DNA of 38,303 bases from Candidatus Aegiribacteria sp. (GTDB lineage: Bacteria; Fermentibacterota; Fermentibacteria; Fermentibacterales; JCC-6), in the NCBI GenBank assembly GCA_021108005.1, contig JAIORS010000144.1, forward strand, positions 1 to 38,303, in the 5' to 3' direction. Both the position numbers and the translations under genes were made by a program. This document shows, piece after piece, positions 4,671 through 34,979 of this stretch (within the stretch, counting starts at the first letter, position 1; each line of letters opens with the position of its first letter). Under the pieces are notes generated by a model. The model made no database searches. It was given only the letters and a program-made list of their open reading frames with translations, and was not told where the DNA came from.

Positions 4671-5702
4671 TTACCTTTCTACAATGACGATTCCCTGGGG
4701 ACCATTTCCTGCTGTTAGTGTATCGAGCATGACCTTTGATGTCCAGTTTGAAACGTAAACTAAATCATCTTCGAAATCGGTCATATATAGAGTGTCACCA
4801 CTGACTGCCAGACCCGCTAGAGTAATCGATGAATCGGGTGTCCAAGTCGATTGAAGTGTTCCTGATTCATCATAGAAGAATATTGAAGATCCGAATCCAT
4901 CACAGCAGGCGAAGGAACTACCCACTCTAACTGGTGAGAAAGGAGTACCTCCAGTGGGAATCTGAGCTTTGATAGTCGCTGTAACAGGATCGATTATTGA
5001 AACAACACCGTCATCCGTATAGGTGTAAGAGAATGCATGAATGTTGCCCGTTTCAGGGCAGTACCACAACTCGGTTGTGTTCTGCCCAGTGTCGATCCAA
5101 CCGGTTTCCTCGAGAGTTACCGCATCGAAGACGGTTACTCCTCCGGGGGGATTGGGTGCGGAATAGTCGCCGTGACTTACGAATATGCTACCGGAAGCGA
5201 TGGCGATTCCGTACGGATAGTCGGAGACATCCACTGCTTCGCCAAGTGTCCAGGTTTCAGTTGATACAGGTGTTATCTTGTTATTGAGCAGGAGAGTAAC
5301 CCAGATGTTGTCGTTGTAGTAAGCCATGGCCCAGGGATTGCTGCCAGCTGGAAAGGTAATCTCGTGCAGGAGTGATCCCGACATGGAAAGATCGACGACC
5401 TGGAGAATAGAGGAAAGGGAGCTCAGAACTGCCAGCTTATCAGAACCAAGGTAGAGCATATCATTTGGGGCGTTTCCGGTAATGTAGGCCGTCGATACAA
5501 GAAAATCGCTTTCAGGGAAGTATAGATCAACGGTATTACTCAGGCCGTTGAACCACGCAACCAGATTCCCATCGGGATGAGGTTCAGAATTCGGTTCAAC
5601 AGGTGAATTGCATGATGCCGCAACAAGGATTATCAGTATTATACAGGTCAGAGTTATCAGTCCGGGATGATCTTTTTTCATCCTTTTCATTTCAGTTTCC
5701 AT
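4671..5702 (-). CDS. BtuG-like surface beta-propeller lipoprotein
   Basis: This 343-residue lipoprotein has a basic N-terminus, a hydrophobic stretch and lipobox VAASC with Cys31. The rest is a run of short beta-rich repeats of the YVTN/YncE propeller kind (for example WAMAYYNDNIWVTLLLNNKITPVSTETW and PYGIAIASGSIFVSHGDY). It overlaps the 3' end of the BtuB-like gene by 11 bp and so shares the B12 riboswitch. In Bacteroides, BtuG is a surface propeller lipoprotein that captures cobamides and sits as a lid on BtuB. The gene order and fold make that role likely here, but the assignment rests on context because propeller sequences diverge quickly. In-frame ATGs at 5690 and 5681 are alternative starts that keep the signal peptide. 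Confidence 0.8.
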   Translation of the reverse strand: METEMKRMKKDHPGLITLTCIILIILVAASCNSPVEPNSEPHPDGNLVAWFNGLSNTVDLYFPESDFLVSTAYITGNAPNDMLYLGSDKLAVLSSLSSILQVVDLSMSGSLLHEITFPAGSNPWAMAYYNDNIWVTLLLNNKITPVSTETWTLGEAVDVSDYPYGIAIASGSIFVSHGDYSAPNPPGGVTVFDAVTLEETGWIDTGQNTTELWYCPETGNIHAFSYTYTDDGVVSIIDPVTATIKAQIPTGGTPFSPVRVGSSFACCDGFGSSIFFYDESGTLQSTWTPDSSITLAGLAVSGDTLYMTDFEDDLVYVSNWTSKVMLDTLTAGNGPQGIVIVER

Positions 5703-7638
5703 TCCATTCTATTCCAAAGTGAAATGTTCTTGGTTTTCCGGCATATCCGCTGGTTTCCTGATAGTCTTCGTCGAGAAGGTTCTCAACAGAGGCGTTCAGA
5801 GAGAAATTTCCCATGAATTCAGGATTCAGGTTTACTCCCGCTGAAAAGGTTGTATATGCGGGCATCCATGAAGTTTCGCTGTAATTCTTGAACCTTATGC
5901 CCATTCCGCTCGCGGATATGGACCAGTAAGCCCAATCGGGAAATTCAATTCCCGCCTGAAGACCGAATGTGTAATCGGGTGTATAAGGGAGTGTTTTACC
6001 GTAATTAACTGATTCATTGCAGTTATCGGTGATTTCCAGCAGTGTAAGTGTACCTCTGATTTCAGCGGGACCTTCGGAAAACCATGCTTCGGCTTCGATG
6101 CCCTTTCTGAGAGCTTCCGCTATGTTGACAGGGGACCATTTTCCCCCCTGTCCCGGTTCCCATCTGATGAGATCACTGGTTTCCGCGATAAAACCTGTCG
6201 CGGAGAATCTGAAATTCTGAAGGCCGTTGATTGAAATACCGCTTTCGAATTCCACTGAGGTTTCAGGAAGAAGATCCGGATTCCCCTGTGCGAAGTTATC
6301 CTCTGGCCAGTACAGATCGTTGAGTGAGGGGCGCCTGAAACCTGTCGATGCGGAAGTATGCAGAAGAAGAAGCGAATCCTGCACAGGCAGTCCCACAGAA
6401 AATACTGATCCAAGCATGGTGCGTTCCGAAGGAATCACATTAACGCATGCTGAAGCTGAAAGCGAGAACCCGCTGGAGTATCCTGCTGCAAGCGCTGTTT
6501 CACCCGTCAACCTGTTCCTTTCGCCTATTGAGGTGCTCCATACCTTATCAAAGGAGGAACCTGCGGATACGCTCATATTGAACGGCAGCATCGGCAAATC
6601 GTATCCGATGGTGATATCACCGCTTAATTCATCATGTTTATCATCCACTGTTGATGGTGTTGTAGACTTGTATTCATGCCTTCCTGTCCTCATGCCGGCG
6701 TTCAGGCTGAAATTGCCCGGATCCCAACTGCCCCATCCATCAAAACTGTACCTTTTCCTTGTGCCATCTGTTGGAACTGTCCAGTCCGGGCTTTCTGTTT
6801 CACCGGAAGAAACAGCCGTCATTAAACCGTACCTGAAATGGTAACTGTTTCCATGAAAGAGCAGGGCTCCATCGTGTGCAACGGATTCGGATATGCCTGT
6901 AAGTTTCCTGATACTAAGTGAAAACCGGTTCTGACCGGCTGAGATTCCTCCTGAAATAGATATGGATTTATCATCTCCAGCGGTAAGTGAACCTCTGGGA
7001 GGCAGTCCCGGGGATTCAAGAATAAAATTCAGTGTCCCGGCCATTCCGCCTTTAAGATAACCCGACCCCCCCCCTCTTGAGATTTCCATTCCGCCGAACA
7101 GTACAGGATCAAGTGTAATTCCGGGTAGCCCGTCCATCGAACCTGTGATGTCATGTCCATCGATATAGTATTCGGAATGCGCCACATCGCTTCCACGGAT
7201 GGAAATGGAGATTACCGGCATGGCCCCGCCATATTCACGGATAAAGATACCGCTGCATCTGCTGCCAAGCTTTCCCAGCCCGGATCTGCCCATATATTCC
7301 ATGTCGTCCCTGTTCAGAACAGTTGTCGCGGGAAACAGGTCTCTGAAGCCCCCGCGAGAAGCAGTTACCAGTATAACCATGCCCGATGGGACCGGCACGG
7401 TTGTAAGAAATACCTTACCAGAAGATGGTACCGCTCCGTTCCATATCTCGTATCCGATGGCCCTGACTTCAATAAAATCAGTTCCATCGGGAAGAGGCAC
7501 TTCTCCCCTCATGTCGGAAATGCCGATGAGTGTGCTGTCTGTGCATATTGAAGCTCCGATAATTGGAAAGCCGCTTGTATCAGTTACAGAAAGATTTGAC
7601 TGTGATATAGTAATCAATACCAAAAGCAATTGTACCAA
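5692..7638 (-). CDS. btuB: TonB-dependent vitamin B12 receptor (BtuB-like)
   Basis: The product is an outer-membrane receptor of about 648 residues with, in order, a signal peptide, a carboxypeptidase-regulatory-like domain (SVTDTSGFPIIGASICTD), a TonB-box-like ILVTASR, a plug (RGSDVAHSEYYIDGHDI, LKGGMAGTLNFIL) and a beta-barrel ending in the typical GKPRTFHFGIEWNGN strand. The cobalamin riboswitch upstream indicates that corrinoids are the substrate. I prefer the TTG at 7638, 6 bases after a clean GGAGG. The frame also opens 24 bases earlier at a TTG (7662), but that codon lies in the loop of the riboswitch terminator. A G9 tract at 7066-7074 encodes part of the plug. The gene is followed, with an 11-bp overlap, by the BtuG-like gene. 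Confidence 0.9.
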   Translation of the reverse strand: MVQLLLVLITISQSNLSVTDTSGFPIIGASICTDSTLIGISDMRGEVPLPDGTDFIEVRAIGYEIWNGAVPSSGKVFLTTVPVPSGMVILVTASRGGFRDLFPATTVLNRDDMEYMGRSGLGKLGSRCSGIFIREYGGAMPVISISIRGSDVAHSEYYIDGHDITGSMDGLPGITLDPVLFGGMEISRGGGSGYLKGGMAGTLNFILESPGLPPRGSLTAGDDKSISISGGISAGQNRFSLSIRKLTGISESVAHDGALLFHGNSYHFRYGLMTAVSSGETESPDWTVPTDGTRKRYSFDGWGSWDPGNFSLNAGMRTGRHEYKSTTPSTVDDKHDELSGDITIGYDLPMLPFNMSVSAGSSFDKVWSTSIGERNRLTGETALAAGYSSGFSLSASACVNVIPSERTMLGSVFSVGLPVQDSLLLLHTSASTGFRRPSLNDLYWPEDNFAQGNPDLLPETSVEFESGISINGLQNFRFSATGFIAETSDLIRWEPGQGGKWSPVNIAEALRKGIEAEAWFSEGPAEIRGTLTLLEITDNCNESVNYGKTLPYTPDYTFGLQAGIEFPDWAYWSISASGMGIRFKNYSETSWMPAYTTFSAGVNLNPEFMGNFSLNASVENLLDEDYQETSGYAGKPRTFHFGIEWNGN

Positions 7639-7672
7639 AAAAAACCTCCGGCAGCTTTGCAAGCCGCGGAGG
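7637..7672 (-). terminator. Riboswitch expression platform: terminator containing the SD
   Basis: On the minus strand, CCTCCGCGGC (7672-7663) folds back on GCTGCCGGAGG (7655-7645), and eight T residues follow (7644-7637), a standard intrinsic terminator. The 3' arm ends in GGAGG, which is also the Shine-Dalgarno of the preferred TTG start at 7638. The hairpin could therefore stop transcription and also hide the ribosome site in any read-through transcript. Confidence 0.8.
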
Positions 7673-7713
7673 CTGAGGCCGGAGCAGCATCCCTTAAGCG
7701 GGGATCTGTTTCC

Positions 7714-7858
7714 AAGCCGCGGTGCAATATCCTGACTTCCGGATCATCCCTACCCCCGCCTTCCCACCTTTCGGCAGTGGCTTTTATTGGGGTTCAGTAC
7801 CCGGTTACAGTGGCGCTACCGTGGCGGATTCACACCGCCTTCCTGCACCCCGCGACCA
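7714..7858 (-). promoter_or_regulatory. Cobalamin riboswitch aptamer
   Basis: The minus strand carries the conserved elements of the cobalamin riboswitch (Rfam RF00174 class): GGTGTGAATCCGCCACGG, GCGCCACTGTAA, the B12-box core AGCCACTGCCGAAAGGTGGG with AAGGC, and GATGATCCGGAAGTCAGGAT. The closing stem pairs CGCGGGGTGCA (7854-7844) with TGCACCGCG near 7726-7718. The 3' side of that stem contains CCGCGGCTT, which recurs exactly in the 5' arm of the terminator. Because CCGCGG is self-complementary, the free P1 strand could pair with the terminator arm and act as antiterminator when B12 is absent. The element controls the B12 receptor operon. Confidence 0.95.
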
Positions 7859-7872
7859 GCATTTCAAAGGAA

Positions 7873-18620: not shown

Positions 18621-20723
18621 ATGATATTGCGATATCAATGCGAAGGGGTGAGTGCAATAGTTTCAGATAACCTGGGAATCCGCATAAACCGGCTTCCCTT
18701 TTTCCTCATTGTGATATTGTTTATTACTGCACCCGCTATGGCTTACGTAGGCCCGGGAGCCGGTTTCGGTATAGTTACGTCTTTCCTTGTGTTTCTGAAT
18801 GCCATTTTCGTTTCATTGCTGTCAGCACTTATATGGCCCGTTACCATCATCATAAGGTCTCTTAAAAAAAGAAGAAGACAGTATACAGGAACTGCGAGAA
18901 GAGTTGTAATACTTGGACTTGACGGTTTTTCCCCTGTTATCGCGGAAAGAATGATGGCTGATGGAGAACTCCCCAATCTTAAAAAACTCTCCGATGAAGG
19001 CTCGTTTTCCAGGCTGGGAACAACCTGTCCGGGTATTTCGCCTGTTGCGTGGTCCTCATTCCAGACCGGTGTTAATCCAGGCAAACACGGAATATTTGAC
19101 TTTCTCGCTCCCGACAGGGAAAGGTATCTAGCTAAATTGTCATCTGTGACCTCGGGCGAAGCTCCATCAAGGGTCGGCCTGGGACTCATCAACAGAACAG
19201 TGATGAAACCCTTTGTAAAGCTGTTGCGGAAGAGTAAACCGTTCTGGAAACTGCTTAAGCGTTACGGTATAAGATCTACGGTTCTCAGGGTTCCCATCAC
19301 TTATCCTCCCGAATCGCTTGACGGGCATTTACTCAGCGGTATGTGTGTTCCGGATCTTCGTGGAACCCAGGGCAGTTATACGATATTCACTGAAGAGGAG
19401 TCAGAAGAGACTTTTACGGGCGGCATTCAGCGAAGGCTTGAAAAACTGGATGAGAACAGATGGAAACTGGAAATGCCCGGCCCTGAAAAACCTGACGGCG
19501 AATATGTCACAGCCAGGCTTGAACTCGACATTTCCGGCAAAACAGCTCTACTGCGAACCGATAACGGACACGTTGAACTGAAAACCGGTGTGCTTTCCGA
19601 TTGGCTTGAAATGCTTTTCAGTCATGGTCGGAGTAAAGTCAGGGGAATATCGAAATTCTGTCTTACGGAGGATATGGCTGGAAGACCTGTTCTTTACTCT
19701 ACCGCAATTAATGTTGACCCGTTCTCCCCCTCTGTACCCATCTCGCATCCCGTTCATTATTCGAAGTACCTTTCCGGACTGTACGGTCCTTTCGCAACAC
19801 TTGGTCTTGCCGAGGATACCTGGGCATTGAGTAACGGGGCTGTTTCTGAAGAAGTTTTCCTTGAACAGGCATGGTCCATCTACAATGAGAGAAGGAAGAT
19901 GTTCTCAGACGCCCTGAAGCATACAAGGGATGGTCTTGTAGTATGTGTATTTGACACGTCTGACAGAATACAGCACATGTTCTGGGGTGACGGTTCGTTG
20001 AAAGGCACTCCAATCCATGATATGTACAAAGAAATGGATTCGCTGATAGGAAAAACTGTCAGTGAGCTTGGCAGGAAAGATATGCTCATAGTAATGTCAG
20101 ATCATGGTTTTACTTCTTTCCATACGTGCATAGACTTTAACAGGTGGCTTCTTGATAACGATTATCTTGTTCTCGATAACGGCGTTGAAACAGTTGACAC
20201 ATCGTTCAAGGGGGTTGACTGGTCAAGAACAAGGGCATGGTCTATGGGGCTGGCCGGCATAATGCTCAATATCAGTGGTCGTGAGGGCAAAGGTATTGTA
20301 GAATCAGGAACTGAAGCTGCAGAGCTTCTTGAAGAGATATCCGCGAAGCTTTTGAAGCTTGAAAACGGTGAAGGCGAAAGGGTGATTAACGCGGTTTATC
20401 CTTCCGAGAGTGTTTACAACGGACCCTATACTTCCAGGGGGCCAGATCTTGTGATCGGCACAAAAGACGGTTACAGATCCGGCTGGGGATGTGTCACGGG
20501 GGGTATTGGAAAGGAAATTATCTATCCCAACGAAAGGCACTGGAACGGGGATCACTGTCACGATCACAAACTTGTTCCCGGTACGCTTGCTTCCAATGTA
20601 AAACTGAACACCGAAGATGCGACGATTATCGATATCGCGCCAACAGTACTCAGAGCTTTTGGTGTTATGGCCCCAGCCTACATGGAGGGTAAGTCCCTTA
20701 TCCGGGAAGGTGCGGAAAGATGA
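18621..20723 (+). CDS. Membrane-anchored alkaline-phosphatase-superfamily phosphodiesterase
   Basis: This 700-residue protein has an N-terminal module of two hydrophobic segments with the AYVGPGAGFG motif (residues 41-50), then a basic RSLKKRRR stop, then a type I phosphodiesterase/nucleotide-pyrophosphatase domain. Catalytic markers are VVILGLDGF (Asp101), GISPVAWSSFQTG with Ser140 as likely nucleophile, GKHGIFDF, MSDHGF and the late GDHCHDH. The AYVGPGAG module also occurs as small stand-alone proteins in envelope loci. The catalytic domain should face outward if the second segment is a TM anchor, but the basic cluster could instead hold it inside. It overlaps the next, paralogous gene by ATGA. 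The ATG at 18621 lacks a good SD, so a start slightly downstream is possible. Confidence 0.85.
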   Translation: MILRYQCEGVSAIVSDNLGIRINRLPFFLIVILFITAPAMAYVGPGAGFGIVTSFLVFLNAIFVSLLSALIWPVTIIIRSLKKRRRQYTGTARRVVILGLDGFSPVIAERMMADGELPNLKKLSDEGSFSRLGTTCPGISPVAWSSFQTGVNPGKHGIFDFLAPDRERYLAKLSSVTSGEAPSRVGLGLINRTVMKPFVKLLRKSKPFWKLLKRYGIRSTVLRVPITYPPESLDGHLLSGMCVPDLRGTQGSYTIFTEEESEETFTGGIQRRLEKLDENRWKLEMPGPEKPDGEYVTARLELDISGKTALLRTDNGHVELKTGVLSDWLEMLFSHGRSKVRGISKFCLTEDMAGRPVLYSTAINVDPFSPSVPISHPVHYSKYLSGLYGPFATLGLAEDTWALSNGAVSEEVFLEQAWSIYNERRKMFSDALKHTRDGLVVCVFDTSDRIQHMFWGDGSLKGTPIHDMYKEMDSLIGKTVSELGRKDMLIVMSDHGFTSFHTCIDFNRWLLDNDYLVLDNGVETVDTSFKGVDWSRTRAWSMGLAGIMLNISGREGKGIVESGTEAAELLEEISAKLLKLENGEGERVINAVYPSESVYNGPYTSRGPDLVIGTKDGYRSGWGCVTGGIGKEIIYPNERHWNGDHCHDHKLVPGTLASNVKLNTEDATIIDIAPTVLRAFGVMAPAYMEGKSLIREGAER

Positions 20724-22690
20724 AAAGAAGGGAATTCCTCAAGCTCGCGGCTCTGTCACCCGCGGCTCTCATCGCATTGAATACAGGCTGCAGACGTACA
20801 GCATCTCCTGCAAAGCGTGTTATTGTACTTGGAATTGACGGGATGGACCCATTCCTTCTGAGAAGCTTTATCCATGAAGGGGTGATGCCTAACGCTGCTA
20901 TACTCATGTCATCGGGAGGATTGAACAGGCTTGGAACAAGCAATCCTCCCCAGAGTCCGGTAGCATGGTCTAATTTCATAACAGGTTACGGCCCGAACGT
21001 ACACGGAATATTCGATTTCATTCACAGGGACCCTTCCAGCAGGCTACCCTACCTCTCTACATCCAGGGTTATCGGCCCCGACAGGATAATCAGCATCAGC
21101 GACTGGCGTCTCCCCCTGTCCGGAGCAAAGGTAGAACTGCTTAGAAAGGGAGAGCCATTCTGGAACCGGCTTACCGATGAAGGAATACCTGTTAAACTGA
21201 TCAAACTTCCGGTTGATTTTCCTCCCGACAAGGGGAAGGCTAAAATACTATCGGGGCTGGGAACACCGGATATGCGGGGAAGCCAGGGAAGCTTCACGTT
21301 TTTTACGGATGACGCGAGATCGATTACAGACGTAACTTCCGGAGGGATAATCGTTCCTGTGCGTGATTACGGCGACAAATGCTACGTCTGTCCTATAAGA
21401 GGGCCGGAGAACTCAATGAGAGCCGGTAATCCTGATATGAGAGTTGAAGCGAAGGTCTGGGTTGACCGCGATGCGGATGCATTGAGAATAGACATTCAGG
21501 ATGAAAGCACTGTACTGGCAGCCGGAGAATGGAGCCGGTGGTTAAAAATAAGATTTGACGCGATACCGCACATTTCCAGCGTTAACGCTATTGGAAGGTT
21601 CTACGTAAAGGAAATATCGCCAAGGCTTAAACTTTACCTTTCGCCGCTGAATATCGACCCGATGAATCCCGCTCTTCCCATTTCGGAACCCGCTGACTTC
21701 AGCAGCAATCTCGCAAGGGACCTTGGATCGTTCTACACACAGGGTTTCCCGGAGGACACAAAGGCCCTTTCTAGGGGTATACTTTCGGATGAGGAGTATC
21801 TGCAGCAGGCGTGGATAGTCCTTGATGAACGGCTGAACCTTTTCCATCACGAATTGAGCAATTTCAAAGAGGGCATGTTCTTCTTCTATTTCAGCTCGCT
21901 GGATCTTAACGTACACATGTTCTACAGGGTTCTTGACCACAATTCGCCCCTTTATACAAGCACAAACCCCCGTTTTAAAAGCTCAATACGAGAACTGTAT
22001 ATGCAGATGGACAGAGTTATAGGAGATGCGCTTTCTGCAAAGGACGCTAATACGGAAATAGTGCTGCTTTCCGATCATGGATTTGCGCCTTTCAACAGAT
22101 CTTTTAACCTGAATACATGGCTTGCGGAGGAAGGTTACGCTAATATAACGTCCCCTCATTCCAGGAATCAGGATATGTTCGCCGCAATCGACTGGGCTTC
22201 CACGGCAGCTTACGGCCTTGGATTGAATTGCCTTTACATCAACAGATCAGGCCGTGAAGAGAACGGAATAATATCTCCGGATCAGGTTCCTGATCTTCTT
22301 CTAAGGTTGAAACGTGACCTTGAATCGATAACAGATCCCGCCACCGGAAGGCGAGTTATAGATAATGCCTATATTACATCTGATATCTATCCGGGGCCCC
22401 TTCCACCCTTCTCGCCGGATATGATAATCGGTTACGCAAGGGGTTACAGATCTTCCTGGGAGACAACTCTCGGGAGTTATCCTGAGGAAGTAATAACGGA
22501 TAACCTTGATCCCTGGAGCGGAACACACTGCGTAGACCCCGGGGTTGTTCCAGGAACACTCCTCTCAACTGTGCCGCTTTCACTGCCTGACCCGAATCTC
22601 ATGGATATGGGAAGAAGCATATCCTCGCTTTTCGATGTACCCGTTCTTCCCCCCGGAGGAAGAAATATTTTCAGTGATACAGATGATTAG
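20720..22690 (+). CDS. Tat-exported lipoprotein, alkaline-phosphatase superfamily
   Basis: This 656-residue paralogue of the preceding enzyme begins MKRREFLKLAAL...LNTGC, a twin-arginine signal that ends in a lipobox with Cys24. It is thus folded in the cytoplasm, exported by Tat and lipid-anchored. The catalytic markers match its neighbour: VLGIDGMDP (Asp40), PQSPVAWSNFITG (Ser79), NVHGIFDF, LSDHGFAPF and a late THCVDPG. The late metal-site His pattern (GTHCVDP) differs from the neighbour's (GDHCHDH), so their metal content or activity may differ. Tat export fits a metal-loaded enzyme. Its stop overlaps the ATG of the following membrane protein. Confidence 0.87.
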   Translation: MKRREFLKLAALSPAALIALNTGCRRTASPAKRVIVLGIDGMDPFLLRSFIHEGVMPNAAILMSSGGLNRLGTSNPPQSPVAWSNFITGYGPNVHGIFDFIHRDPSSRLPYLSTSRVIGPDRIISISDWRLPLSGAKVELLRKGEPFWNRLTDEGIPVKLIKLPVDFPPDKGKAKILSGLGTPDMRGSQGSFTFFTDDARSITDVTSGGIIVPVRDYGDKCYVCPIRGPENSMRAGNPDMRVEAKVWVDRDADALRIDIQDESTVLAAGEWSRWLKIRFDAIPHISSVNAIGRFYVKEISPRLKLYLSPLNIDPMNPALPISEPADFSSNLARDLGSFYTQGFPEDTKALSRGILSDEEYLQQAWIVLDERLNLFHHELSNFKEGMFFFYFSSLDLNVHMFYRVLDHNSPLYTSTNPRFKSSIRELYMQMDRVIGDALSAKDANTEIVLLSDHGFAPFNRSFNLNTWLAEEGYANITSPHSRNQDMFAAIDWASTAAYGLGLNCLYINRSGREENGIISPDQVPDLLLRLKRDLESITDPATGRRVIDNAYITSDIYPGPLPPFSPDMIIGYARGYRSSWETTLGSYPEEVITDNLDPWSGTHCVDPGVVPGTLLSTVPLSLPDPNLMDMGRSISSLFDVPVLPPGGRNIFSDTDD

Positions 22691-26472: not shown

Positions 26473-26563
26473 AGAGGATATATGGCCGCCTATCTTCTAT
26501 TCTAACGCACGATACTGATACTTCTGGCTTCTTCGATCCCTCCAATCTCTGTTTTCAGTATGT
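26473..26563. repeat. 91-bp repeat, original copy at the 3' end of the M23/T9SS gene
   Basis: This stretch covers the last 21 or so codons of the M23/T9SS gene and 29 bp beyond its stop. It recurs at 34838-34928 in direct orientation with one difference (tatggccg here, tatagccg there). This copy is the intact one, since it completes an open reading frame. Confidence 0.95.
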
Positions 26564-29500
26564 AAACTCCCGATGGAAGATTTTCAACGCCTATACTAAG
26601 AACAGAACCACTTTCATGAAGAACTCCCGATTCCGATACAACACAACGTCCGGATAAATCGTAAAGATCAAGCTTCCACCTCTCACCCGATTCATGGGAG
26701 ACCATGACATCAAGGGTTTCAAGGACAGGGTTGGAAAGAACCGTGAATAATTCATCATCGGCAACCGAATCGTTAATACTCTGCCTTGATGAAGATGATT
26801 CTTCTAGGGTATTCATTGTTCCATCACCTGGGGGATGCAATATTCTGAATTTCTCTATGTAATGATCAGGTCCGGTGCAGATGAAATACCGAACAAGAGC
26901 CGAGCCTGATTTGTAGATATTTTCGATATTAGCTGTACAACAATGGAATTGGGAATCAATCCGATGTGTATTTGAACACCATCCCGAGCATAGGCGATAG
27001 CTCTTTCTTCCCGTTTCTGAATTAACACAGTACGCGTATGCGGAACTTGAATTAAAGCCACACTCACTGCCAGTTATCCAGAAATACTTTGAATCAGTGG
27101 AAAGATACGGCATTATCGTACCGGGTCCGCCCATCCAAAAAGCTCCACCGGAATTGTTAAAAACATGATATTTAGTATAGAAGGTATGACGAAGAATTGA
27201 CCCATCGGGTTTAACTATTGGAATATAGAAATTTAAATGACCAGGTTCGTCATGGTACATCCAGAAACCGCACCAGTAGAAACAGCTGCCCATAAAATCG
27301 GCTTCCTCAAGTCCTATCCGGGAAAGATTGACTTCCGCAACTATATCGGCAGCGACATGTCCTTTTGCAATGTTACCATACCTGCCCCACCAGGGTCGTC
27401 CCCAGCGATTACTTAAATCAGGACCAGTTTCGTATCCCTGTGGATAAAATGAAGGATTCTCGCTCCTTCTCCCTCTGATCCAGTTCCAGCTTTCGTAACC
27501 TGCTCTGGTTGCCGGTACTGTTTTTGGAAATCCGTCCATCGGGTGTGCCGCAAGATCCCTGGGACCCTGATTACTCTCAGGATACCACTTGCCTATGTGT
27601 ATCTGTATAGTACCCGCAAACTCCGAAGGAAGATCTCCATCGTATGTATAGTGTACCGCGTAACTGGCATCAGGCTCTTCAGGGAACTCTCCCCCAAGAT
27701 TGTTCTGAAGAATGTCAACCTGCTCAGCGTTTCCCGAAGGCGTATCCCTTATAAAATCTCCATGATCCCTGGAATCCCAGTCTACCATCTCGGCGATTTC
27801 CCCGCTCATCCATATTACGTCTGTAAGTTCAGCTCCGGATGAATTCTCAACCATTGCAGGTTCGGAGTAGATCACAAGCATGTTAAGGGCTTCGTTGTCG
27901 CTTTCTCCGGGGATGTATCCGTAAACGTTTTTGTACAGGTTTCTGTTGCCATCACCGGAATCCATTTCCCCTTCAACACGGTCAATCTCCTCCAGAAGGA
28001 ACTCCACCGGATCCTGCCCGATATCATCTGAAAGACAGTAATCGCATTCGGTATTACCGAACTCTCCGTATTCCGTACTTCCTATGGTAATTGCATCTCT
28101 CATATTCAGTTCTGAATTTACAGCAGTTTCTTCATGAGACCTTGCCGGAAACGTATTGAAACGTTCTTCATGCATTTGAAGACTTGGTGGCGAAAGTATT
28201 TCATCCACTGCTTCATTTCGCTCAAGTTCCTGGAAAAACCGGAGATCCTCCCTCAGTTCCTCAAGGTATTCCAACGAAGCTGAATTTCCTGAATGATCCT
28301 TTCCGCCACCCTTCCAGGTTCCTATGTATTTAACATCAACACCATCGGATTCTACAGTTGATCCGGAAGTGTAGATTATCACAGCACCAATACTGGGAAG
28401 GAAATTGTCAACGATGATCCCTTCGGTATCATGGTTCGCACTCCCGAGATCATCTACGGGAAGCAGCATACTTCCCTCTGACCTTGAACCATGGCTTACA
28501 GCTGTAACGTTTACAGCGTACCTTCCATCCGGAAAGAAAGCCTCCCTGTTGCTTGCAGGTTCTCCTGAAATACCCCGCCTGGCAAGAAAAGTATCCCAGG
28601 CTCCCTGACAGATGCCGGTTCTCCAATCGTTTATATAACCTGCGCCGGTAAAGACATTGTCCCAGCCGGTTTGCCAGATCGAAGGATTCAAATAGCTGCT
28701 GTTGGTGACGATGTAGGCGTTCATGTTGTACCACCAGGCGGGGTCAAGTGCCCCACCACCATTGGGTAATTGGCCATCCGGAAATATCGCCCGGTATCCG
28801 GGCGAGTCTCCATTAGGAAGCTCATCACGCATCTGCATAAGGAATCTTTCTCCGAAAATCCCGGGTGCTGCAGGTAAATAGTCAACAGGTGACTGTGGAT
28901 CCTGTCTTAGGATTTCGTACGAAACGGAATAGACTCCGGCTGAATCTCTGTCAGATAATCCCTGAAATGCTGAGAATGGTGATACCGCAATATCTATAGC
29001 CCCGCTTACAAATTTCTGAAAAACGTTCCGGTTTGGATTCCCCGGAGCATATCCTAATTGAGCATATGATTCGTATCCATCAGGGGTGAACCAGATCCCT
29101 CTATTAGCAGCTGGGGACAGCATTTCTTCCCACTTCACATGATTGAATTGTATTTCATCGTAGTCAGAAAGATCATCATCGAAATAATCGAACGGATTGT
29201 ACAAACCTGGCGGTGATCCCGGCTGGATAGGATCCACCCATTGCAGATGCATATGCAACGGTGCTGAAACATTATACAATGAACATGGAGCTAAGGGTTG
29301 ATGGTTAAGTACCATCGAACCGGTTGAGAATGGCCATAAAGCGGGATTGTCAATGGCCAAGTGGGCAATACCCCATCCTTCTTGGCTGGCCGGATCAAGT
29401 CCAAATACCATTGTATATCCAAGTCCGGAAAAAGTCCCGAGAGTATAGCGAGTTCCGTTTGTCGGGAGAAGAACTGGATCTTCGAAATCTGCTCCAAAAT

Positions 29501-29687
29501 CCAATCCCGGATGTGCACCCTCTGACTTTATACACCAGTCACCATAACCACCGTTTATACTGTGAGGTGCTTGAGCATTTTGGAAGAAAGGCCAGGAGAC
29601 CAACCAGGGTATACCTCTATCATCAGAAAAGGCAGCAGTTTGTATGATGAGCAGAAATGCTGTTAAGTAGGTAGATATGCTTTTCAT
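26502..29687 (-). CDS. Secreted M23-type peptidase with T9SS sorting domain
   Basis: This 1061-residue protein has a signal peptide (about 1-21), then an M23/LytM-like domain at about 40-170 with HPGLD (His59, Asp63), IAHLA (His109) and LHMHLQW (His145, His147) followed by NPFDYF, the complete zinc-peptidase pattern. A long central region of about 800 residues is unrecognised and contains Cys pairs (CDYC, CFYWC, CSGWCSN). The last 75 residues are a type A T9SS sorting domain (LDLYDLSGRCVVS...LPSGVYILKTEIGG). M23 enzymes cut peptidoglycan cross-bridges or glycine-rich peptides. T9SS export suggests an external or cell-surface target. It is coupled by 4 bp to the propeller gene upstream. Its 3' end is duplicated at 34.8 kb. 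Confidence 0.85.
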   Translation of the reverse strand: MKSISTYLTAFLLIIQTAAFSDDRGIPWLVSWPFFQNAQAPHSINGGYGDWCIKSEGAHPGLDFGADFEDPVLLPTNGTRYTLGTFSGLGYTMVFGLDPASQEGWGIAHLAIDNPALWPFSTGSMVLNHQPLAPCSLYNVSAPLHMHLQWVDPIQPGSPPGLYNPFDYFDDDLSDYDEIQFNHVKWEEMLSPAANRGIWFTPDGYESYAQLGYAPGNPNRNVFQKFVSGAIDIAVSPFSAFQGLSDRDSAGVYSVSYEILRQDPQSPVDYLPAAPGIFGERFLMQMRDELPNGDSPGYRAIFPDGQLPNGGGALDPAWWYNMNAYIVTNSSYLNPSIWQTGWDNVFTGAGYINDWRTGICQGAWDTFLARRGISGEPASNREAFFPDGRYAVNVTAVSHGSRSEGSMLLPVDDLGSANHDTEGIIVDNFLPSIGAVIIYTSGSTVESDGVDVKYIGTWKGGGKDHSGNSASLEYLEELREDLRFFQELERNEAVDEILSPPSLQMHEERFNTFPARSHEETAVNSELNMRDAITIGSTEYGEFGNTECDYCLSDDIGQDPVEFLLEEIDRVEGEMDSGDGNRNLYKNVYGYIPGESDNEALNMLVIYSEPAMVENSSGAELTDVIWMSGEIAEMVDWDSRDHGDFIRDTPSGNAEQVDILQNNLGGEFPEEPDASYAVHYTYDGDLPSEFAGTIQIHIGKWYPESNQGPRDLAAHPMDGFPKTVPATRAGYESWNWIRGRRSENPSFYPQGYETGPDLSNRWGRPWWGRYGNIAKGHVAADIVAEVNLSRIGLEEADFMGSCFYWCGFWMYHDEPGHLNFYIPIVKPDGSILRHTFYTKYHVFNNSGGAFWMGGPGTIMPYLSTDSKYFWITGSECGFNSSSAYAYCVNSETGRKSYRLCSGWCSNTHRIDSQFHCCTANIENIYKSGSALVRYFICTGPDHYIEKFRILHPPGDGTMNTLEESSSSRQSINDSVADDELFTVLSNPVLETLDVMVSHESGERWKLDLYDLSGRCVVSESGVLHESGSVLSIGVENLPSGVYILKTEIGGIEEARSISIVR

Positions 29688-30958
29688 TCCTCATCACACC
29701 CTTCAACACGAGATATCAGAACCTGATTATAATCAGAGTAAATAAAACGTTTTCCATTAGACTGGATGCTAAGTGTATTACCGGTTAATTCATATTCAAG
29801 ATTATTATTGGGTCCATGGATAATAAGAGAACTAGAATCAACACTGTATGGAGATGAAACCCAGAGAATCATTCCATTACTATCAGTGTAGATAACCTTT
29901 CTCAAGTTATGATTTTGATAAAGGGGAGGTAAGCAAACTGAAATTGACAATGAAGACCCGTTACATGCAACTGCAACAGGAACTCCATGATCCCAGTTTT
30001 CTGTAGGATAGTACATTTCATTAATTGATTCCATGCTTTGAATATCTGAGCCAAACGCAAGACCTCTGTGAACAATATGAGATGCCCATCCAGTGCGGCT
30101 AACGCTTGGAACAGGTGCATTCATCTGTGTGTCAAACTTTGCCCAAAGAAGCTCACCGGTGAAACCATTATGGCATTCTAATCCGTGTAGAGTAGCCAGC
30201 AAAACGATAGAACCATCAGCATTCACAAGAGGAGGGCAAGGAAGCCCTCTCTCCAATTCCATCTCCCAAAGAAGCGTTCCATATTTATCGTATGCCGAGA
30301 GCAAATTCCATGATGCAAAAAGTATTAGTGAACCATCTGAGGCGTGTGCAAAGTGTGTGAACATATCAATTGGTATTTCTGTAGAACAAAGTAGATTGAA
30401 ATCAGGGTCGTAGAATTCAAGCAGACGATAGGGATTGTAATTGTTCCAGCGGAAAATAGATCCATCATCGTTAACAAACTGAAAGCCTGTCCAGCCAGTG
30501 TTCTGAAGAGGCTCAAAGGTTCGAACTTCACCGGTCTCTATATCTACAAATTCAGCTTCACGGGAGTATATTGATTCCCGGCTGCCATCCAATACCGGTC
30601 CCATGATAAGTGCATACTTCCCATTACGGGAATAGATGATACCCCTTGGAGAGCAAGTTAATGGAATATCACGGACTTCTTCATCCTCCTGAAGAACAAC
30701 CAGTCTGTCTTTCAGAAGCATTATGATACGCCACTTCTCACCATTTTCTGTAGGTATGAAAAAGCCCTGGCAACCAATGCTTGCCACGGGGCCGTTGCAG
30801 TTCTCTCCCCATCCAATTGGTTCACCATAATCAAGCGGGTTGATCACAGCTTCTTCAACTACTCTATACCCCGGCGCAGTCCATTCCTCATCCGTCTGGT
30901 CAAGAATGGCTGGCTGGGTTGTTGTTATTCCTATAAGCGCCATCAGTAATAAAAGCAT
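29684..30958 (-). CDS. Secreted PQQ/WD-like beta-propeller protein
   Basis: This 424-residue protein has a short signal (MLLLLMALIGITTTQPA) and repeated beta-blade patterns such as YDKYGTLLWEMELERG, NGFTGELLWAKFD, SNGMILWVSSPY and RNGKYALIMGP, resembling PQQ-like propellers. No T9SS tag is present, so it may stay periplasmic or leave by another route. It starts 10 bp after the FG-GAP gene and overlaps the M23 gene. Its local base usage is more AT-rich than its neighbours, which may mark separate ancestry. It could be a partner or chaperone of the two tagged proteins; that is inference from the operon. Confidence 0.75.
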   Translation of the reverse strand: MLLLLMALIGITTTQPAILDQTDEEWTAPGYRVVEEAVINPLDYGEPIGWGENCNGPVASIGCQGFFIPTENGEKWRIIMLLKDRLVVLQEDEEVRDIPLTCSPRGIIYSRNGKYALIMGPVLDGSRESIYSREAEFVDIETGEVRTFEPLQNTGWTGFQFVNDDGSIFRWNNYNPYRLLEFYDPDFNLLCSTEIPIDMFTHFAHASDGSLILFASWNLLSAYDKYGTLLWEMELERGLPCPPLVNADGSIVLLATLHGLECHNGFTGELLWAKFDTQMNAPVPSVSRTGWASHIVHRGLAFGSDIQSMESINEMYYPTENWDHGVPVAVACNGSSLSISVCLPPLYQNHNLRKVIYTDSNGMILWVSSPYSVDSSSLIIHGPNNNLEYELTGNTLSIQSNGKRFIYSDYNQVLISRVEGCDEE

Positions 30959-30968
30959 ATCGTTCTCC

Positions 30969-32804
30969 TCAGTTTATTATTACAATTCTTTGTGTCTTAA
31001 TATCATTCATGTCGGTCTGCAGGAAGTAAATACCTGGAACAAGGTTTTCTGTATTGTAAGAATATGTCCCTGAATCAGGCGTAGTGAATTCTTCTACGAC
31101 TCTGCCTGATATATCAAGCAGTCTTATCGATGTTTCCTGATAAGTGCTCACCGAAAATTTAATTGAATTATGCGACGGATTGGGTGATGTAATGCTGAAA
31201 GATTGCATGGGGACTTCTAACGGAGATGTTTCACCGATGGCAACATCATCCCATGAAACCGTGATACTGTTCAGAACAGGAGTCTGAACTGAATCGGGGC
31301 TGTTCATGAGAATCCTGTACTGGAAATACCTTGTGGTGTCAGCAAGTATACCGTAAAGCTCCTGCGGTTCGTAAAGCTCTTCTGACCAGCTTCCCATATT
31401 CTCCCAGTCGTCGGAGCTTCTTACCTGTACGGTCAGTGTGGAATCAACGGGACATTCCGATGTCCATGAAATATCACTCCACAGCTGCTGCACCTGCGCA
31501 TCAAGGATGGTTGAGACAAGTTCACCTGCATGAGAGATAAAACCAGGGCTCCAGTATTTGATTGCTTCTCCCACACCTGCGGCTCCAACTATCTCAAGAC
31601 CGGGTACAGTGTCTATTTCAGCGGCACAAACAGCGGTGGCTCCATCGAGTTCGCCGATAAGGTATTCTTTCCACTCATCTTCGTATGTGTATTCGTACCA
31701 GCGCACCTCGCTTGCATTACGACCCGCGGCTACGATATTCAGCCAGTCATCACCATCCGACGCGATATCACAGATGCATACACCAGAAGCGCCCCGAAGG
31801 GTATCGGTTACCGTGTGTTTGTACCAGCAGGCGCCGTGGTCTGCGTTTTCGTACCAGTATACGGCATCATCATCGTAACTGCATACGGCTATATCCGGTA
31901 ATTCAAGCGCGTCACCATTGATATTGCCCAGTCGGATGCACATGGGATGGAAAACGAGTGAATCGATAACATGTTCCTCAAAATCGTCGAACCAGCTAAT
32001 GCATTCCAGGTAAACTATTCTGGCGTTGTTGTACTCGGCAAGAACTATGTCCAGATCACCGTCGAGATCAATATCCATAACGTCAATCGAGGATATATTC
32101 GGATATTCACCTGGTATCTGAAAATGCTCCCATGTGACACTGTCACCTTCCATAGAAGAAACATAGTTGTGAAGAATGCCCGTTGCAGACTCGCATACAA
32201 GAAGATGAACACTGTCACCTACCATTACAGGATAAATCTCCCCGGGATTGTCTATTCTATCAATGGGATGTGGTATCCATAGATATTCACATGAATCACA
32301 CTCGAACCAAAACAGTGAATCATCGTAGAAAGCGGAAGCTGCCACATCCATGTAACCATCGTTGTTAACATCGCAGGGCCTGGCGCAGTTGGCGCCATCG
32401 AATTGGGCGGCTATTTCAACAAGTGTCCAGGATTGTCCGTTGCCTTCGTTCCTGTACCACGCAACGATATCATCCGACCATGAGGCAACAAGAAGATCAA
32501 TATCGGTATCGGAATCCATGTTCACGGGAACAACCGAGTACGGAGCACTCGCTGAAGCGTCTATAACATGCTCGGGACAGTTCTCAGCATAATCAAGATA
32601 AAGACTGGTTTCTGAATTGAACCAGTTCATGTTCTCGGAGGAAGTGAAGAAATTGCTCCAAGATGTTACCGGACCCATCTCACCCGGGCCGCCCTGCCAT
32701 GTGGACTGGGTTTCATCGAAATCCCCGAAGCAGTTCAAAGCGCAAACAAGCATGTAAGCTGTTAATACCATTAATACCCCCGCCTTTATGCATCTTTTAA
32801 TCAT
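30969..32804 (-). CDS. FG-GAP/VCBS repeat propeller with T9SS sorting domain
   Basis: This 611-residue protein has a signal peptide (KRCIKAGVLMVLTAYMLVCAL). At least five FG-GAP-like blades follow with Ca-binding style Asp motifs (DTDIDLLVASW, NNDGYMDVAASAF, DLDGDLDIVLAEY, LPDIAVCSY, GLEIVGAAG), then a beta domain, then a type A T9SS sorting domain over the last 80 residues (SPNPSHNSIKF...VPGIYFLQTDMN). These integrin-like propellers bind ligands or partners at the surface. The ATG at 32804 gives the basic signal n-region but has no SD. An ATG at 32771 follows GGCGGGGG but would lose the basic residues. The poly-C promoter lies just upstream. Confidence 0.87.
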   Translation of the reverse strand: MIKRCIKAGVLMVLTAYMLVCALNCFGDFDETQSTWQGGPGEMGPVTSWSNFFTSSENMNWFNSETSLYLDYAENCPEHVIDASASAPYSVVPVNMDSDTDIDLLVASWSDDIVAWYRNEGNGQSWTLVEIAAQFDGANCARPCDVNNDGYMDVAASAFYDDSLFWFECDSCEYLWIPHPIDRIDNPGEIYPVMVGDSVHLLVCESATGILHNYVSSMEGDSVTWEHFQIPGEYPNISSIDVMDIDLDGDLDIVLAEYNNARIVYLECISWFDDFEEHVIDSLVFHPMCIRLGNINGDALELPDIAVCSYDDDAVYWYENADHGACWYKHTVTDTLRGASGVCICDIASDGDDWLNIVAAGRNASEVRWYEYTYEDEWKEYLIGELDGATAVCAAEIDTVPGLEIVGAAGVGEAIKYWSPGFISHAGELVSTILDAQVQQLWSDISWTSECPVDSTLTVQVRSSDDWENMGSWSEELYEPQELYGILADTTRYFQYRILMNSPDSVQTPVLNSITVSWDDVAIGETSPLEVPMQSFSITSPNPSHNSIKFSVSTYQETSIRLLDISGRVVEEFTTPDSGTYSYNTENLVPGIYFLQTDMNDIKTQRIVIIN

Positions 32805-32813
32805 AATATTGAA

Positions 32814-32845
32814 TTAATATGGGGGGGGGGGATTCTGTAAGTCAA
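32814..32845 (-). promoter_or_regulatory. Promoter with C11 homopolymer spacer
   Basis: On the minus strand, TTGACT (32845-32840) is followed by 20 bases including eleven consecutive C residues (32831-32821), then TATTAA (32819-32814), which lies 10 bp before the FG-GAP gene start. The -35 is strong and the -10 moderate. The spacer is 3 bases longer than ideal, so loss of three C residues would make a near-optimal promoter. Confidence 0.5.
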
Positions 32846-32899
32846 TGTGCATGGGGTCGGACGTAACTTCTGGTTACTTCACAAGCTTAGATCCTTGGT
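32845..32899. repeat. 55-bp direct repeat, left copy (bracketing the AbiE locus)
   Basis: This matches 34925-34979 at about 48 of 55 positions. The core is GGGGTCGGACGTAACTTC, followed by GGT-ACTTCA and an AAGCTTA. GGGGTC-type sequences resemble the flanks of IS200-like (REP-associated) elements, but no transposase is present here. The rest of the 315-bp gap between the FG-GAP and AbiE genes holds the promoter and operator listed and nothing else I recognise. Confidence 0.85.
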
Positions 32900-33103: not shown

Positions 33104-33119
33104 ATACTTGGACGGAGAT

Positions 33120-33725
33120 ATGAAACATTCTATTGATAACAAAGTGTTTAAGCGGATCACTGGTCATGGTCGCGGTTGGGTCTTCACTCCGGCAGACTTC
33201 AAGGATCTCGGAAGCAGAACTGCTGTGGCCCTGGCTCTTATGCGCTACAAGCGGGACGGAACCATCAGGCAGATCTCCCGGGGCCTATACGACTATTCTC
33301 GCAAGGATCCCATTCTTGGTATCCTGGCCCCCTCGATTGATCAGATTAAAGCCGCTCTGGAGTTACGCGATGCAGTTCGGCTCCAGCCTTCTGGAGCATA
33401 CGCCGCCAACCTTTTAGGTTTAAGTGACCAAGTTCCCATGAAGATCGTATTCTTGACCGACGGACCCGCTCGGAAACTGCAGATTGGAAACAGTCAGATC
33501 CTCCTGAAGCGAACCACACCCCGTAATATGGCAACGGCTGGTAGGATCAGCGGGACAGTTATCCAAGCGCTAAGATGGCTTGGAAATACAAATGTGGATG
33601 ACCGCGTTATATCAATCCTCAAACAAAGACTGAGCACCGAGGACAAAGCTCAGTTGTTTAAAGATATCCGCTACGCGCCCATCTGGATCGCCCAGATCAT
33701 ACGTACTATATCGGGGAGGGAATGA
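33120..33725 (+). CDS. AbiEi-family antitoxin / transcriptional regulator (DUF6088-like)
   Basis: This product of about 201 residues starts with a winged-helix region (GHGRGWVFTPADFKDLGSRTAVALALMRYKRDGTIRQISRGLYDYSRKDP), typical of AbiEi antitoxins. The C-terminal domain carries the conserved LRLQPSGAYAANLLGLS-like and ILKRTTPRNMATAGRISGTVIQAL stretches. In type IV systems the antitoxin blocks the toxin's effect and represses the operon. I chose ATG 33120; the frame also opens at TTG 33108, 4 codons upstream. It overlaps the toxin gene by ATGA. Confidence 0.9.
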   Translation: MKHSIDNKVFKRITGHGRGWVFTPADFKDLGSRTAVALALMRYKRDGTIRQISRGLYDYSRKDPILGILAPSIDQIKAALELRDAVRLQPSGAYAANLLGLSDQVPMKIVFLTDGPARKLQIGNSQILLKRTTPRNMATAGRISGTVIQALRWLGNTNVDDRVISILKQRLSTEDKAQLFKDIRYAPIWIAQIIRTISGRE

Positions 33726-34762
33726 ATTTTATGGATGGGTATCTTAAGCTACCTCCCGAACGAAGGCGCCTTATCTGCGAGCAAGCCGATGTACGCCTCA
33801 ACCTACCCGCTTCGTCACTGGAAAAAGATTACTGGGTTTGTTGGATTCTCCGAGAGCTTTTCAGTATTCCAAAGTGGTGTGAGAGCATTACGTTCAAAGG
33901 TGGTACGTCTCTCTCCAAATGCTGGGGATTGATCAACCGGTTCTCCGAGGACATCGACATTGTGATTGATAGGAATTTCCTTGGATTCGGAGGCGAAAAG
34001 AGCCCGGAAAACGCTTCAAGCAGGAAGCAGACAAGTAAGCGTCTAAAGGAATTGAGAGAGGCATCACAGACTAAGATTCATAACAGTCTTGCACCTATTC
34101 TGAAGACAAGAATTAGAGCATCCCTCCCCTACTCTGATGAGTGGGATCTTTTTCCCGCTTCAGAAAAAGAAGACCGCGACAGACAGACAATCCTGTTCAA
34201 ATATCCGTCAGCTATGAACGATACGAGAACATACGTTCGACGAGTGGTTAAAATAGAGATGGGCGCTAGATCGGATAATGAACCTGTCGAGGAGAAGGAA
34301 GTACATCCTTATGTATTTAATGTCTTCCCAGATATTATTGGTCCCAGTCAGTTTTCTGTGAAAGCTTTAGCACCGGAAAGAACATTCTGGGAAAAAGCGA
34401 TGTTATTGCATGAGGAGACATATCGACCTGCTGATAAAATACGGAGAGATATACGGATGGCCCGGCATTACTATGATCTATGGTGCCTGATCACAAAGGG
34501 TGTTGCCAAGAGAGCAGTTGATCGCGAGGATATCTTCATTCGTACAGCAATACATCGGGAAGTTTATTTCAAACGGTCATGGATGGATTACAGCACTCTA
34601 ACAAGAGGGAAGCTTCGAGTTATTCCGCCTCCAGGACAAGAAGCGGAATGGCGTCAGGACTATAAGGTGATGAGCAGGGAGATGTTCTTCGGTGAAGTCC
34701 CGGAGTTCGATGAGGTTCTTCGTGTGGTAACGGAGTTTCAGGATAAGTTCAATGCCGGCTGA
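33722..34762 (+). CDS. AbiEii-family nucleotidyltransferase toxin
   Basis: This 346-residue protein has the AbiEii signature: FKGGTSLSKCWGLINRFSEDIDIVID (residues 58-83), which combines the GGTSLSK nucleotidyltransferase motif with the DID metal site, and the later KALAPERTFWEKAMLLHEE and ARHYYDLWCL motifs. The DNA polymerase beta-like fold transfers nucleotides; characterised relatives modify tRNA 3' ends. It forms a type IV toxin-antitoxin pair with the preceding gene, giving phage defence or element stability. All visible key residues are intact, so it should be active. The pair is bracketed by 55-bp direct repeats. Confidence 0.92.
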   Translation: MNFMDGYLKLPPERRRLICEQADVRLNLPASSLEKDYWVCWILRELFSIPKWCESITFKGGTSLSKCWGLINRFSEDIDIVIDRNFLGFGGEKSPENASSRKQTSKRLKELREASQTKIHNSLAPILKTRIRASLPYSDEWDLFPASEKEDRDRQTILFKYPSAMNDTRTYVRRVVKIEMGARSDNEPVEEKEVHPYVFNVFPDIIGPSQFSVKALAPERTFWEKAMLLHEETYRPADKIRRDIRMARHYYDLWCLITKGVAKRAVDREDIFIRTAIHREVYFKRSWMDYSTLTRGKLRVIPPPGQEAEWRQDYKVMSREMFFGEVPEFDEVLRVVTEFQDKFNAG

Positions 34763-34837: not shown

Positions 34838-34928
34838 AGAGGATATATAGCCGCCTATCTTCTATTCTAACGCACGATACTGATACTTCTGGCTTCTTCG
34901 ATCCCTCCAATCTCTGTTTTCAGTATGT
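34838..34928. repeat. 91-bp displaced copy of the M23/T9SS gene 3' end
   Basis: This is a direct copy of 26473-26563 with a single mismatch. On the minus strand it encodes the last 21 or so residues of the T9SS sorting domain (LKTEIGGIEEARSISIVR) and the stop, but no gene leads into it. It joins directly to the right-hand copy of the 55-bp repeat. The near identity implies a recent event. Confidence 0.95.
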
Positions 34929-34979
34929 GTGTGGGGTCGGACGTAACTTCAGGTAACTTCATAAGCTTAAATCGTTGGT
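34925..34979. repeat. 55-bp direct repeat, right copy
   Basis: This is the second copy of the GGGGTCGGACGTAACTTC repeat (compare 32845-32899), offset by 2080 bp and in the same orientation. It directly follows the 91-bp fragment, sharing its last ATGT. The AbiE pair and its operator lie between the two copies. Confidence 0.85.

Follow-up and report, generated by a model that had tools for sequence, protein, structure and literature searches.

The window, by which we mean the whole stretch of 38,303 nucleotides that was analysed, belongs to Candidatus Aegiribacteria, of the phylum Fermentibacterota. Between positions 26502 and 32804 it contains three co-directional ORFs on the minus strand, in the order FG-GAP, propeller, M23, which form a putative operon. 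The initial annotation had described an M23 hydrolase with two propeller partners here, and the three ORFs are real and placed as claimed. In a scan for promoters and terminators, predicted promoters were no more frequent than in shuffled sequence. The following features were distinguished:

26502-29687, minus strand: predicted M23 metallopeptidase of 1061 aa, with an N-terminal signal peptide and a C-terminal T9SS type A tail (ORF, family profile)
29118-29609, minus strand: predicted M23 catalytic domain, residues 27-190, with H59, D63, H109, H145 and H147 (invariant residues, lysostaphin profile alignment)
28368-29117, minus strand: conserved residues 191-440, including the segment (about 347-427) where the sequence type switches in exchanged relatives (alignment)
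28008-28367, minus strand: variable linker, residues 441-560, missing from distant relatives (alignment)
26808-28007, minus strand: exchangeable C-terminal half, residues 561-960, without Pfam family
26529-26732, minus strand: T9SS type A sorting domain, residues 986-1053
29684-30958, minus strand: putative partner beta-propeller of 424 aa, with a hydrophobic signal-like N-terminus and no T9SS tail; 4-bp overlap with the M23 start
30969-32804, minus strand: FG-GAP propeller protein of 611 aa, T9SS tail at 30978-31184
33108-34762, plus strand: AbiEi/AbiEii toxin-antitoxin pair, between the FG-GAP gene and an M23 remnant
34838-34928, minus strand: 91-bp copy of the M23 gene 3' end, 99% identical to 26473-26563

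A predicted remote M23 peptidase with a T9SS tail

An intact M23 motif set had been noticed at the start of the 1061-aa protein; it consists of HxxxD (H59/D63), GW..H (H109) and HxH (H145/H147). A Pfam search of the window's protein gave no PF01551 match and a single-sequence PDB search retrieved no M23 domain. We therefore assembled homologues from related genomes into an 18-sequence alignment and a 21-sequence profile, and it was only by this family profile that the domain could be detected. The profile matched lysostaphin (4qp5, E = 5.3e-7), LytM (E = 2.7e-6) and additional M23 entries of the PDB; the HxxxD, H and HxH motifs lined up with those of lysostaphin. G47-Y48-G49 and the five motif residues were invariant in all 18 aligned homologues, down to 20–25% identity, and the five were also kept in 21 of 21 sequences of the wider set. 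The motif set is thus confirmed, and the zinc ligands, whose failure to line up had been named as the point on which the proposal could fall, do so in the profile alignment to lysostaphin, i.e. at sequence level. In one relative PF01551 reached 26.5 bits, under the cutoff of 28.7, and relatives in other taxa exceed that cutoff. Based on the comparison of the family profile with the PDB, the protein is predicted to be a genuine, remote M23 peptidase.

With lysostaphin and LytM it shares the three motifs in register and the GYG at the start of the domain. It differs from them in its low identity (about 20%, Pfam-invisible), its large C-terminal half, its T9SS tail, its obligate neighbour propeller and the lack of a propeptide; the M23 domain begins directly after the signal peptide, leaving no room for one. 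Beyond the catalytic domain, residues 190-440 are conserved family-wide, and a linker of some 120 residues (441-560) is specific to the lineage. Residues 560-960 contain motifs, among them DLAGxxxD, reminiscent of bacterial Ig-like domains; in some relatives from other taxa a Big_13 Ig-like domain follows M23. The 800-residue middle that the initial annotation had left unrecognised is thus partly resolved: conservation extends to around residue 440, the linker follows, and then the exchangeable half, but for the C-terminal half of the window's protein no named domain or Pfam family was found. The AF2 model of the whole protein, made from an alignment of five rows, had a pLDDT of 30, too low for use. 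Two other kinds of match were discarded: weak M23 matches on C218 proved to be RNA polymerase subunits, and a similarity to the translocation domain of colicin S4 (E = 0.04) was attributed to chance.

The sorting tag reported for the M23 protein was borne out by TIGR04183 (24.7 bits, cutoff 23), with PF18962 marginally under its cutoff (26.6 bits against 27). The description of the 611-aa protein as a tagged FG-GAP propeller also stands: its domain is clear (PF13517, 1.4e-18) and its tail scored 36.7 and 36.1 bits with the two models. The genome encodes about 130 proteins with T9SS tails, a SprA_N match above cutoff and three sortase homologues that are full-length but score slightly below the cutoff. 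Like T9SS type A cargo (TIGR04183), the M23 protein combines a C-terminal tail with a Sec-type N-terminus, whereas the partner propeller is without the tail. The best reading of the sequence is a T9SS-exported endopeptidase. Gram-negative M23 enzymes commonly are housekeeping enzymes of the cell's own wall, and work in the periplasm on that wall was considered here too. It is highly improbable, given that a tail match was found in 13 of 14 members of the family, that four ordinary M23 genes are already present in the same genome, and that the family (first profile) occurs in 24 of the 42 genomes of the phylum and so is not universal. M23 enzymes that Pfam overlooks are frequent T9SS cargo in Fermentibacterota. 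The finding also raises the question how a T9SS cell passes a wall-cutting enzyme through its own wall.

Pairing and joint inheritance of propeller and M23

The untagged 424-aa protein was identified as a PQQ/WD40-type propeller, in agreement with the initial annotation. Its family profile matched designed and PQQ propellers in the PDB (E = 1e-17), and its AF2 model (pLDDT 66, moderate confidence) matches propellers as well. In the window's branch every propeller begins with a short hydrophobic segment, as would suit a Sec signal, and export of the propeller is likely. Pfam and TIGR04183 searches detected no T9SS tail in the window's propeller.

Among the 44 M23 genes that have 300 bp or more of upstream sequence, 41 directly follow a propeller gene, and in most of these cases the two genes overlap by 4 bp. 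For 28 of the 44 loci, their own propeller genes had gone into the profiles used; the remaining 16 loci gave 13 matches. Other ORFs of the same loci matched in 11 of 363 cases, several of them beside broken or partial M23 genes. In one of the three exceptions (L117_3) the preceding protein is propeller-like by eye. In the two others (L118_5 and L119_6) about 300 N-terminal residues give a propeller-profile match that is weak and not proven, ranking above all decoys. The L119_6 protein (755 aa, L119 7024-9291, from another taxon) may thus be a single chain of propeller-like N-terminus, M23 and T9SS tail. An M23 branch of 1300–1390 aa has a different, more distant propeller family as its partner, and the two propeller families are related over about 107 columns (hhalign probability 97%).

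In seven genomes a tagged FG-GAP gene lies ahead of the propeller gene. The conserved unit is therefore propeller plus M23, with FG-GAP as an optional third gene. The original reading of a secreted M23 hydrolase with propeller partners is supported, but of the two partners assigned to it the untagged propeller is the most conserved and FG-GAP is optional; the search for homologous operons suggested at the time found a recurring pair and no constant three-gene set. In the 1300–1390 aa branch an FG-GAP propeller is contained in the M23 protein itself, which makes a functional link between FG-GAP and M23 plausible.

The family comprises two sequence types. Three loci (L035, L036_9 and L016) form one clade, with support 100/99, both in the propeller tree and in the tree of M23 residues 27-345. 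The tree of residues 440-960 rejects this clade (p-AU 7e-7) and places L035 with L032/L033 (100/99) and L034 with L036_9/L016 (86/94); these alternative groupings are in turn strongly rejected by the propeller and N-half trees. The groups for these tests were picked after inspecting the alignment. Between genomes G027 and G029, synonymous difference is 0.41–0.72 in the propeller and the earlier M23 segments, and 0.03–0.40 from about residue 320 of M23 onward. The conflicting trees and the low synonymous difference indicate that the C-terminal half was homogenised by recombination. Positive selection alone was rejected as the cause of the divergence valley, since synonymous divergence rises there too and recombination is the simpler explanation.

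Propeller identity correlates with M23 domain identity (r = 0.96) and not with that of the adjacent FG-GAP (r = 0.07; six loci). The propeller and the N-terminal half of M23 have thus travelled together, the C-terminal half has been exchanged between lineages, and the adjacent FG-GAP gene did not follow. Linkage explains part of this joint inheritance, as the propeller and the M23 N-half are neighbours, but probably not the whole, because FG-GAP, on the other side of the propeller, is uncorrelated. From these sequence patterns the propeller is probably the dedicated binding partner of the enzyme, and physical binding to the M23 catalytic half is likely. Literature searches for an M23-propeller-T9SS pair returned nothing relevant.

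Possible functions of the pair

We tentatively propose, at somewhat less than even odds, a two-gene module in which an exported propeller binds the catalytic half of a T9SS-exported lysostaphin-type M23 endopeptidase and may keep it inactive. The propeller would be translated just before the zinc endopeptidase, and both proteins would reach the periplasm by Sec. There the propeller, bound to the catalytic half, would keep the enzyme folded and inactive during its passage of the cell's own peptidoglycan. Recognising the tail, the T9SS would then deliver the enzyme to the cell surface or into the medium, and there it would cut peptidoglycan or similar peptide cross-links, a substrate we infer. 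FG-GAP, where present, would be a second surface protein, perhaps binding cells or glycans.

M23 enzymes such as LytM, LasA and ShyA are often restrained by an N-terminal propeptide or inhibitory domain. As the M23 domain here follows the signal peptide without a propeptide, and the propeller is made just before it, the propeller may act in trans as escort or inhibitor, perhaps as a safety catch; we regard this role as slightly less likely than not. The closest functional likeness is Bdellovibrio Bd3460, a periplasmic protein that binds the exported endopeptidases Bd3459 and Bd0816 and shields the wall of the predator itself (PMC4686830). Both cases would combine an exported wall endopeptidase with an adjacent periplasmic repeat protein. 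Bd3460 is an ankyrin protein encoded downstream, whereas the partner here is a propeller encoded upstream; Bd3459 and Bd0816 are DD-endopeptidases of another family, and inhibition was shown there and is proposed here.

The main rival to an escort or inhibitor is a co-exported binding subunit. The propeller and FG-GAP would then belong to a scavenging complex, in which they bind substrate for a surface enzyme, and this enzyme would feed a fermenter by breaking down the peptidoglycan or protein of dead cells. The fusion of FG-GAP into the enzyme in the 1300–1390 aa branch agrees with this, and the possible propeller-M23-tail chain of L119_6 seems to fit a co-exported subunit as well. Aegiribacteria have been described as fermenters rich in proteases and peptidases (PMC4846661). 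However, the window's separate propeller has no T9SS tail and would need another export route. In its inheritance it also goes with the catalytic half, and neither with the remainder of the enzyme nor with FG-GAP, although a substrate-binding subunit could do the same. We consider scavenging rather unlikely. An escort or inhibitor could itself be part of a so far undescribed control module, in which the propeller replaces the propeptide, is swapped between strains with the M23 catalytic half, and serves against neighbouring cells; this more specific proposal is unlikely. The two-protein pair is phylum-wide in uncultured bacteria and directly testable.

Locus history and the AbiE neighbourhood

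The 91-bp copy at 34838-34928 is a remnant of a second unit, beyond the AbiE pair. Tandem units do occur, since in G008 the end of an M23 gene is followed by another FG-GAP gene and the start of a propeller. Decayed copies were found in G006, G011 and G013. Besides the present M23 gene, the window's genome contains two paralogues, on C202 and C219, and a partial one on C61; a propeller accompanies every one of these genes. AbiE genes lie beside M23 loci or remnants in four genomes. AbiE was rejected as part of the module: the genome contains 8 AbiEii genes and the association is seen in few loci, so that we regard it as neighbourhood.

These observations bear on the antagonistic or predatory weapon that the initial annotation had considered beside a substrate-capture machine. 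As a further explanation it takes the form of an antagonistic toxin with immunity, in which the propeller would protect the producer and its kin from an enzyme aimed at neighbouring cells. Tandem and decayed copies and the adjacent AbiE genes would suit such a system, as would the joint inheritance of the catalytic half and its neighbour gene; joint inheritance of the active domain with the adjacent gene and decayed copies are also known from polymorphic toxin-immunity systems. Those systems have a variable C-terminal toxin domain and a downstream immunity gene, whereas here the catalytic domain stands at the N-terminus and the partner is encoded upstream. Moreover, arrays of orphan immunity genes are absent beyond the few decayed units, the literature search found no such pair, and the family is ordinarily present across a fermenting phylum, which argues against a weapon. 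A toxin with its immunity protein is quite improbable.

The AbiE pair is bracketed by 55-bp direct repeats (32845-32899 and 34925-34979), each containing an 18-bp REP-like motif. Allowing for up to one mismatch, the genome contains this motif 24 times, in some places as closely spaced inverted pairs. Three genomes have a second AbiE-type pair adjacent to an M23 gene or fragment (L034 8442-9831, L037 2361-3759 and L050 8221-9619), with a Fic-domain gene nearby in L034.

Elsewhere in the window, the 792-aa protein at 2095-4473 (minus strand) joins a PHP-type phosphoesterase-looking start to a GT4 glycosyltransferase; Pfam confirms the glycosyltransferase only. At 18621-22690 (plus strand) two paralogous type I phosphodiesterases (PF01663) are encoded in tandem, of which the second has a Tat-like start. 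At 4671-7869 (minus strand) a TonB-dependent receptor and a 343-aa lipoprotein that looks like a beta-propeller are encoded behind a cobalamin riboswitch (7704-7869), a set resembling the BtuB-BtuG vitamin B12 uptake pair.
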